This document shows positions 13 through 2,666 of a DNA stretch of 39,077 nucleotides, piece by piece; positions within the stretch are counted from its first letter, which is position 1, and each line of letters opens with the position of its first letter. Below the pieces are notes generated by a model. That model was not told where the DNA came from and ran no database searches. It was given only the letters and a program-made list of their open reading frames with translations. The stretch is from Candidatus Izemoplasma sp. Lineage in GTDB: Bacteria; Bacillota_I; Bacilli_A; Izemoplasmatales; Izemoplasmataceae. Location of the stretch: NCBI GenBank assembly GCA_007131405.1, contig SLQR01000094.1, positions 1 through 39,077 of the forward strand, read 5' to 3'. A program made the position numbers and the translations under genes.

Positions 13-534
13 TTATCCGAAGTAATCTTTTGGTAAAAATCTCATGCGTTTTGCAAATATTTTTGTTGGAAACGTATGAATTTTTTGGTTGTACAAAATG
101 ACTTTTGAATTGTACTTCAAACGACATTGTTGAAGACTCTCAAATTGACGTTTTAACGGTTCATAATTGAGTTCTTCGTTTTGATAAATTTCTCCATACA
201 TTTTTTGCATCGCTTTAAACAATTTTTGGCGATCGGAGAGTGTATGATGTCTCAAACGTTTACTATCGGCTGTTTTAAAGGATTCTATAAACTTAAAACT
301 TAAGTAATGTTCAAGGATATGGCTCTGTTCTTGGTAGAGTTTAACGGTCTCAAACAGTTTGGCATGGAAGGTGATTTCAAGACGGGACACTTGTTGCCAA
401 ATGGTAAACAGTTTGTTGCGAATGTAAAAACCATAGCCAATAATTAAGGCAACAAAGACAATTAGAATGATGTTATTGATAATAAATATCCAAAATAGAT
501 TTAAAACATACACACTTAATATATCGTATAACAT
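13..534 (-). CDS. LemA-like membrane protein (divergent)
   Basis: N-terminal TM segment, then YIRNKLFTIWQQV; C-terminal RLKYNSKVILYNQKIHTFPTKIFAKRMRF resembles the LemA pattern R-x-YN-x-x-V-x-x-YN-x-x-I-x-x-FP...A...F. Confidence 0.7.
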   Translation of the reverse strand: MLYDILSVYVLNLFWIFIINNIILIVFVALIIGYGFYIRNKLFTIWQQVSRLEITFHAKLFETVKLYQEQSHILEHYLSFKFIESFKTADSKRLRHHTLSDRQKLFKAMQKMYGEIYQNEELNYEPLKRQFESLQQCRLKYNSKVILYNQKIHTFPTKIFAKRMRFLPKDYFG

Positions 535-546
535 ATGGACCCTCCT

Positions 547-2091
547 TTACGCCATTTTCATTTTAAAGCGTTGGTAATAATCTTCAAATTCACTGCTGTA
601 TTTTAAGAATCGGTCAAGAATATACGGTTCAAAATACTCTTTAAACTCAAGTTCTAAAAGTTCCACAGCACGCTTATGGGTCAATGCTGTTTTGTAATTT
701 CGTGCTTGCCTAAGAATTTCATACATTTCTGCTACTAAGATAATTTGTCCTTCTTGACTACGTTGAACACGTTTCATGCGTTCGGTAAACGTACGGTCAA
801 CGGTTTTTTCAAAATGGGCGCGAATTATGTCTTCACTTTTTTGATTTAGTTGCATGCGTTTAATAATAACACTACCAAGAATCGTTTTGTCACGAATAAT
901 TTGATAGTCGCGTTCGTTCAAGACATCTTTGTTTTCATACTCAATAATCGATAAATCCGATACACGGTCAACGTGAATCTTTGAGTATTCGAAGATTTCC
1001 GTACACACATTTGGGCTAAGTCCGAGGACATTCCCTAAACGGGAAGCAATTTCTGCGACACGATGTGCACTGGATTGGTCTTCATTTAGTGAATGGCTAT
1101 TAAATACGCCAATGACATCAAAGACATCACCAACGACGGCTTTGAAGTCGTTTTCCATGTCGCGACGTTTAACCAGTTCTTCTTTTCGTTTTAAGTTCAT
1201 CATTTCACCAATCGCAACGGATGAGTAAAGCGCGATATTAAAGATGATTAAGACCAAGGTCCTTAAGACAATATCAATGGTAATATCGGGTCGTTCAAAC
1301 ACCAAATATTCATACAGTCTTGTAAATGATGTGGCGTGTTCGTGACCAAATAGTGGATGCATAATAAAGACATGAATAACCGTCATTAACACAAGCACCC
1401 ATTTAAATAAGAAACGCAAAAGTTTAGGGTCTTGGTATAAAGCGACCACCACAAGCGCAAAATAAATAAGCACGTAACCGGCTTGTGAAATCGACAACCC
1501 AACCCCATCGTCTGTAACACCAACACGCAGTTTAATGTAGACACCAAAGGCCGCTAAAACTATATAGACACTGGCAATATACATCGCCATTTGTTGTTTC
1601 AGAAGTGTCCGCGGTTGTTCTTTAATGATGCGTTTTAAGGTGGTGTTTATGGCAAACATTATTATCCCAAATCCGAAGATCAAAATATAGTTGGGATTTT
1701 CGCTTCCAATGGAGGTGAAGATTAAGAACACAATGTTCGTTAAAATTAAGATGTTTTTGATGACACGGTTGCGTCGATAAAGAACACTGGTGTCATCAAG
1801 AATATCGACACCCGATTCAAAATTAAATTTATCGGCGGCTTTTTTAAATAGCCTGCGATAAAACACACGAAAACGCCGACGAAAGTTCGAAACTTTCTTG
1901 TCGGGATTTTTTGTTGAGTACGCCTTTATTCGATCGACATTGCTTCTAAAAAACATGGCGATTTTATCGAGGCGTGTGGTTTTGTTGGGGTCGACACCTT
2001 TGCTAACTTTTTCAACGTATTCATCGAGTTCTTTTGGATCTTTATCGGCTTTTTTGAAAAAATCATCAAGGTTTTTTTCGTGTTTCACCAT
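547..2091 (-). CDS. Multi-TM protein with C-terminal degenerate HD-GYP-like domain
   Basis: About 6 hydrophobic segments (residues ~110-300). C-terminus follows HD-GYP spacing (SAHRVAEIASRLGNVLGLS; YSKIHVDRVSDLSI; LNERDYQIIRDKTILGSVII; IIRAHFEKTVDRTF; ILVAEMYEILRQARNYKTALTHKRAVELL) but lacks the HD, HHE and GYP residues. Confidence 0.65.
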   Translation of the reverse strand: MVKHEKNLDDFFKKADKDPKELDEYVEKVSKGVDPNKTTRLDKIAMFFRSNVDRIKAYSTKNPDKKVSNFRRRFRVFYRRLFKKAADKFNFESGVDILDDTSVLYRRNRVIKNILILTNIVFLIFTSIGSENPNYILIFGFGIIMFAINTTLKRIIKEQPRTLLKQQMAMYIASVYIVLAAFGVYIKLRVGVTDDGVGLSISQAGYVLIYFALVVVALYQDPKLLRFLFKWVLVLMTVIHVFIMHPLFGHEHATSFTRLYEYLVFERPDITIDIVLRTLVLIIFNIALYSSVAIGEMMNLKRKEELVKRRDMENDFKAVVGDVFDVIGVFNSHSLNEDQSSAHRVAEIASRLGNVLGLSPNVCTEIFEYSKIHVDRVSDLSIIEYENKDVLNERDYQIIRDKTILGSVIIKRMQLNQKSEDIIRAHFEKTVDRTFTERMKRVQRSQEGQIILVAEMYEILRQARNYKTALTHKRAVELLELEFKEYFEPYILDRFLKYSSEFEDYYQRFKMKMA

Positions 2092-2102
2092 GTGCTCACT
2101 TC

Positions 2103-2666
2103 CTATAAATCAAAGTCGAGTTTAATTTCTTGGTACGTAGGGTCTTTCAGTGCTTCGCGTTCGTTGGTCATTTGTGCAACACGTGTTGATGCAGCGGCTG
2201 CGATTGCGCCTACGATATCGTCAAGGAAGGTGTGGCACATTGCTTTTGTGCCTTTTCCGTCTGAATTTAAACGTGCAACAATTAGGGGTTTATTGACATC
2301 AATGTCCCCAAAATTGGTTTTTCCTATGGTTCCATAAAGGCCAGCAAGTTCAAGCCCAAAGAGTTCGTCAATGCCAAACATCCCAAGGTCTTCATGAAGA
2401 ATTTGGCGAATGGGTTCACGAATTAGGTTTTCTTCGGTTAATCGGTCGATTTCAGCCCCGAGTTGCAAGAGATGGAAGGTATCACGTAGTGATAAGATTT
2501 TTTCAACGGAACCCACACAGTCTTTCATCGAAATATCGTCGCTCCATTTGGATTGTTGCATATGCGCAATTTCGGCGATGTCATCAACGTTTACACCGCG
2601 TTCTTTCAGGGTTTTAATGTTCATTTCAAGCATTTCATCACGGCTAAATAATGCACGTTTTTTCAT
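2103..2666 (-). CDS. Phosphatidylglycerophosphatase A family protein (YutG/PgpA-like)
   Basis: TLKERGVNVDDIAEIAHMQQ...; C-terminal FLDDIVGAIAAAASTRVAQM typical of the PgpA family. Confidence 0.7.
   Translation of the reverse strand: MKKRALFSRDEMLEMNIKTLKERGVNVDDIAEIAHMQQSKWSDDISMKDCVGSVEKILSLRDTFHLLQLGAEIDRLTEENLIREPIRQILHEDLGMFGIDELFGLELAGLYGTIGKTNFGDIDVNKPLIVARLNSDGKGTKAMCHTFLDDIVGAIAAAASTRVAQMTNEREALKDPTYQEIKLDFDL

Follow-up and report, generated by a model that had tools for sequence, protein, structure and literature searches.

A conserved six-pass membrane protein with an HD-GYP-like domain lacking the metal site, in Izemoplasmatales and other families of the class

The window, a stretch of 39,077 nucleotides from Candidatus Izemoplasma sp., encodes a 514-residue protein that is probably a membrane receptor or adaptor and not an enzyme. 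Sequence comparison and structure prediction establish its homology to HD-GYP proteins, the family-wide loss of the catalytic metal site, the membrane topology, the purifying selection acting on it and its conservation across the class. The explanation favoured here, with a probability of about 60%, is that of an ancient pseudoenzyme: a non-hydrolysing six-pass membrane receptor or adaptor in which a domain of HD-GYP fold would act as a switch.

Gene organisation and topology

The open reading frame starts with an ATG at position 2091 and stops at 547 on the minus strand. The features of the gene and of its direct neighbours are as follows.

547..2091, minus strand: whole gene, 514-residue membrane-anchored pseudo-HD-GYP protein (open reading frame; orthologues in the order and the class)
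1204..1827, minus strand: residues 89-296, six transmembrane helices with their conserved entry segment, FNFEAGVDILD...RN (hydropathy, predicted helices, conservation in 81 sequences, loop charges)
1090..1290, minus strand: residues 268-334, TM6 running on into the juxtamembrane stalk (AlphaFold2 model, conservation)
550..1074, minus strand: residues 340-514, HD-GYP-like domain with erased metal site (Pfam, PDB searches, profile-profile comparison, Foldseek, alignments)
688..711, minus strand: residues 461-468, RQARNYKT, matching the base-contact motif R-x-Y-K of HD-GYP proteins (alignments with PmGH and DvhD; conservation)
2103..2666, minus strand: PgpA-like gene, directly upstream (PF04608, 49.0 bits; synteny; identity)
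13..534, minus strand: LemA-like gene, directly downstream in this genome (PF04011, 32.3 bits; synteny)

A sequence-only reading of this DNA had counted about six hydrophobic segments, and hydropathy confirms six between residues 110 and 290, with peaks at approximately 110-128, 134-152, 168-186, 199-217, 225-243 and 270-288. Among 81 relatives, the inner loops carry on average 3.9 and 1.0 lysines plus arginines, and the three outer loops 0.5, 0.4 and 0.9. These charges fit the positive-inside rule with the N- and C-termini both in the cytoplasm. In the full-length AlphaFold2 model (mean pLDDT 81), residues 268-334 form a single unbroken predicted helix leading from TM6 into the stalk.

Conservation follows a polar pattern along the chain. 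In the membrane helices or beside them, N108, N119, Q166, Y171, Y206, Q220, H240 and D273 are conserved in at least 77 of the 81 sequences; R302, E305 and R309 of the stalk are invariant or conserved in at least 77/81, and in the C-terminal domain the same threshold is reached by R412, R424, Y457, R461, Y466, K467 and H472. Such a distribution suggests that the bundle holds a functional site and that a coupling element is conserved.

The C-terminal domain is predicted to adopt an HD-GYP fold

An HD-GYP-like C-terminal region had been proposed from the letters alone, and Pfam, profile-profile and predicted-fold comparisons all bear this out. Residues 381-489 match HD_5 (PF13487) with an E-value of 5.5e-8 and 33.2 bits (cut-off 27.2), as do 37 of 47 relatives. 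Profile-profile alignment (hhalign) with four genuine, intact HD-GYP domains of the same genome reaches a probability of 98.7 (E 1.7e-16) over 185 columns, and a PDB sequence search retrieves PmGH, the HD-GYP phosphodiesterase of Persephonella marina, with E 6.9e-5 for the single sequence and 2.6e-10 for the family profile. The domain-only AlphaFold2 model (mean pLDDT 90.8) displays the HD-GYP fold together with its additional C-terminal helices, and its top four Foldseek matches are all HD-GYP structures. The best of them, 4mcw and 4r8z, show E-values of 1.3e-4 to 7.4e-4 and TM-scores of 0.43-0.46; together with 9rbz they reach a probability of 1.00, yet TM-scores of only 0.42-0.50.

Other assignments were discarded. 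Matches to DALR_2, PHM7_cyt and PDDEXK_10 are weak and below the Pfam cut-offs, a PgpH-type protein is ruled out by the lack of any PF07698 match, and the PADLOC match that might have indicated a defence protein is at chance level.

The metal site is erased throughout the family

The metals of PmGH are held by E185, H189, H221, D222, H250, H276, H277 and D305, and alanine substitution of these ligands, E185 and D305 excepted, essentially abolished activity (PMC4159591). When 61 distinct close relatives, all from the order, are aligned to these positions, only two of the eight ligands persist in nearly all of them: H221 as H373 (61/61) and H276 as H426 (54/61). The aspartate of the HD dyad (D222) is V374 in the window protein and I, V, A or T in 61/61; H250 is replaced by K402 (K in 61/61), H277 by F427 (F in 58/61) and D305 by E455 (E in 49/61), while the H189 position holds a histidine in 30/61. 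The GYP motif is missing, its segment reading VDRTFTERM, and the position of its tyrosine is occupied by F435 (F in 60/61). The two PmGH residues in contact with a guanine base, R314 and K317, are retained as R464 (56/61) and K467 (58/61). Within RQARNYKT, R464, Y466 and K467 occupy base-contact positions, and R461 is a new, family-wide residue.

The motifs quoted in the sequence-only reading are all present, namely KIHVDRV (H373, V374), HFE (H426, F427) and the absent GYP; its account of the active site had missed the replacements of H250, D305 and the GYP tyrosine, as well as the kept R464 and K467. The site is lost in every relative. It is as degraded or worse in five more families (f5, f10, f12, f16 and f22), and an intact site was found in no family member, whether from Izemoplasmatales or from these five other families of the class. 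In f10, both surviving histidines are gone in most sequences, H373 being replaced by I in 7/8 members and H426 by R; in f22, K402 is replaced by Q, E or N. No alternative alignment restores a conserved metal site. Conserved H, D and E residues of the domain were also searched for another metal site, and no set is constant across families.

Because alanine at most of these ligands kills PmGH, hydrolysis by the PmGH mechanism is very unlikely. A rewired active site, in which H373, K402 and arginines would serve a different reaction, could be argued from the invariance of H373 and K402 in the order and from the conservation of R412, Y457, R461 and Y466 in at least 79 of the 81 sequences. The substitutions in f10 and f22, however, leave no constant catalytic set across the family, and such an enzyme is highly improbable. 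The retention of H373 in most families could be structural, or it could reflect residual chemistry.

Spread, neighbourhood and selective constraint

The gene is present in all 31 relatives from Izemoplasmatales that are at least 90% complete, the closest being Candidatus Izimaplasma/Izemoplasma. Long matches at E<1e-40 were counted by hand in 109 of 395 genomes sampled from the class; they fall in families f1, f2, f3, f5, f10, f12, f16 and f22. In one genome of the reduced genus g5, the orthologue (L027:61-1620, plus strand) is frameshifted within the HD-GYP-like domain, through decay or an assembly error, and two further, incomplete g5 genomes have no match. These absences and the frameshift indicate that the gene is not indispensable everywhere.

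Strong constraint acts on the protein. Although synonymous sites approach saturation, the HD-GYP-like half shows a pN/pS of 0.10-0.15, compared with 0.15-0.22 for the membrane part and 0.20-0.34 for the N-terminal tail, making the dead domain the most constrained portion. This purifying selection and the class-wide conservation rule out local decay of one gene. Together with the family-wide loss of the metal site, the selection on the domain lends good support to the earlier suggestion of a non-catalytic protein.

The neighbourhood priA-fmt-pgpA-[gene]-metK-lemA is retained, whole or in part, in most relatives, metK intervening between the gene and lemA in many of them. These operon neighbours are housekeeping genes and point to no single pathway. 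The PgpA-like gene lies directly upstream in nearly all Izemoplasmatales and in f12 and f16 loci, and across 18 loci the PgpA-like protein evolves as slowly as the pseudo-HD-GYP protein (mean identity to the window proteins 79% and 75%, against 52% for Fmt and 48% for PriA). The protein might tether the soluble PgpA-like phosphatase to the membrane or serve as its scaffold, and so take part in phosphatidylglycerol synthesis. Shared slow evolution of two neighbours is no evidence of contact, however, and f22 and f10 keep the gene without an adjoining pgpA; this role is judged improbable.

The gene persists without canonical c-di-GMP enzymes

The genome of the window is rich in c-di-GMP domains, with 13 GGDEF matches and 5 other HD_5/HD-GYP matches. 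A metal-free c-di-GMP receptor signalling through the membrane would have a model in DvhD of Desulfovibrio, a membrane HD-GYP protein in which HD has become SQ and the double histidine is lost, and which binds c-di-GMP without metal (PMC13090378). An ungapped alignment made by hand pairs the DvhD base and phosphate contacts M646, R650, Y652 and E668 with L460, R464, Y466 and E482 here, and R464, Y466, K467 and E482 (54/61) are kept within the order. Against such a receptor, distant families such as the GGDEF-rich f10 show K, Q, E or S at R464 and varying residues at E482, and the phosphate-contacting GYP tyrosine is replaced by F435.

The distribution of the gene weighs further against it. At least eight near-complete genomes (G008, G037, G069, G265, G200, G259, G354 and G381) keep the gene without any other HD_5 match and with no GGDEF match or a single weak one; where read, the weak match was usually a degenerate membrane-PAS-GGDEF protein devoid of the GGDEF signature. 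Retention in genomes lacking canonical HD-GYP and GGDEF proteins means that c-di-GMP turnover cannot be the general role and leaves c-di-GMP, at most, as an accessory ligand of certain lineages. A DvhD-like receptor is thus a possible but doubtful description of the family. The earlier idea of a sensor or scaffold that may respond to a nucleotide stays conjectural. The base side of the pocket is partly kept, but a general requirement for c-di-GMP falls away.

A second degenerate HD-GYP domain (HD to HA, HHE to QNE), independent of the first, is encoded in the same genome (contig C94, L087:1462-3474, minus strand), where it is joined to a GGDEF domain that looks intact.

A degenerate GGDEF protein beside CdaA

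On contig C42 of the same genome, a gene for a membrane PAS-GGDEF protein with an erased signature (TGIRF) adjoins a CdaA-type diadenylate cyclase gene (L168:3969-5117 and L168:5137-5889, both minus strand), and similar pairs occur at L170, L171 and L173. Full-length relatives of this degenerate PAS-GGDEF protein are found in about 99 of the 395 class genomes and are retained where canonical GGDEF proteins are missing. A second PgpA-like gene (L168:1161-1679, minus strand) lies in the same contig region.

The pseudo-HD-GYP protein might then be a component of c-di-AMP regulation, acting with CdaA and the degenerate GGDEF protein. Both this protein and a degenerate GGDEF protein are retained in genomes that have no canonical c-di-GMP enzymes, and the degenerate GGDEF gene adjoins the diadenylate cyclase gene in G000, G069, G381 and G200. 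At E<1e-40, a hand tally of the 395 genomes counts 95 with both families, 14 with the pseudo-HD-GYP only, 4 with the degenerate GGDEF only and 282 with neither. A search with PF07698 for PgpH, a c-di-AMP phosphodiesterase, finds it in none of the 20 genomes tested, although the genome of the window has a diadenylate cyclase. The co-distribution is largely at clade level, however, and is mostly explained by shared ancestry; f10 has the pseudo-HD-GYP without a clear degenerate GGDEF, and the pseudo-HD-GYP gene itself is not near cdaA. A part in c-di-AMP regulation is therefore rather unlikely. In a Bacilli lineage including Izemoplasmatales, the dead HD-GYP protein and the dead PAS-GGDEF protein beside CdaA may conceivably be conserved pseudoenzymes that have outlasted canonical c-di-GMP signalling and form a joint membrane module for another signal, possibly c-di-AMP; we hold this to be a long shot.

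Proposed role and implications

In the favoured explanation, that of a non-hydrolysing membrane receptor or adaptor, the HD-GYP-fold domain would lack catalytic metals and would not hydrolyse cyclic dinucleotides. The domain would work as a switch that dimerises by way of the stalk helix extending TM6 and couples a conserved polar site among the membrane helices to a ligand or partner protein in the cytoplasm; these steps, like the direction of signalling through the protein, are what we infer.

To our knowledge, dead signalling enzymes are known mostly as single-protein cases. Here, a class-wide family lacks the metal site and is yet more conserved than the adjoining housekeeping enzymes PriA and Fmt. 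A Pfam HD_5 match alone would get these proteins labelled phosphodiesterases. The family survives in genomes that dropped canonical c-di-GMP enzymes, which provides natural c-di-GMP-free hosts as controls, and the role of the HD-GYP fold outside c-di-GMP enzymology becomes directly testable.

Comparison with known systems

PgpH and the other 7TMR-HD c-di-AMP phosphodiesterases (PF07698) likewise combine a multi-pass membrane bundle with a C-terminal HD-superfamily domain; the PF07698 match is lacking here, and the HD domain is a dead one of the HD-GYP type. NosR of Burkholderia pseudomallei (NCBIfam NF053512; PMC12570481) shares a degenerate HD-GYP domain and is the only NCBIfam match. Its 39 bits are far under the family cut-off of 400 bits, however, and NosR is a soluble response regulator with a REC domain. 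Among the papers searched, none combines HD-GYP with the term "pseudoenzyme".

The best match in both sequence and fold is PmGH (PDB 4mcw, 4mdz and 4me4), a c-di-GMP phosphodiesterase. The C-terminal helices are shared, and the base-contact R-P-Y-K of PmGH corresponds to R-N-Y-K here. In contrast, the trinuclear iron site, HD, HH and GYP of PmGH are all erased, and six transmembrane helices are found instead of its GAF domain.

The closest precedent is DvhD of Desulfovibrio vulgaris (PDB 9rbz and 9rc0; PMC13090378), a dead HD-GYP c-di-GMP receptor. DvhD has lost other residues (SQ, MN) and keeps the GYP tyrosine. It carries dCache and PAS domains, whereas the window protein and its relatives have no Pfam match to a periplasmic dCache or a cytoplasmic PAS domain, and its organism relies on c-di-GMP. 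Beyond these differences, DvhD resembles the protein described here in being anchored in the membrane, in its helical stalk and in the erased metal site of its HD-GYP domain, which in DvhD is metal-free and non-hydrolysing.
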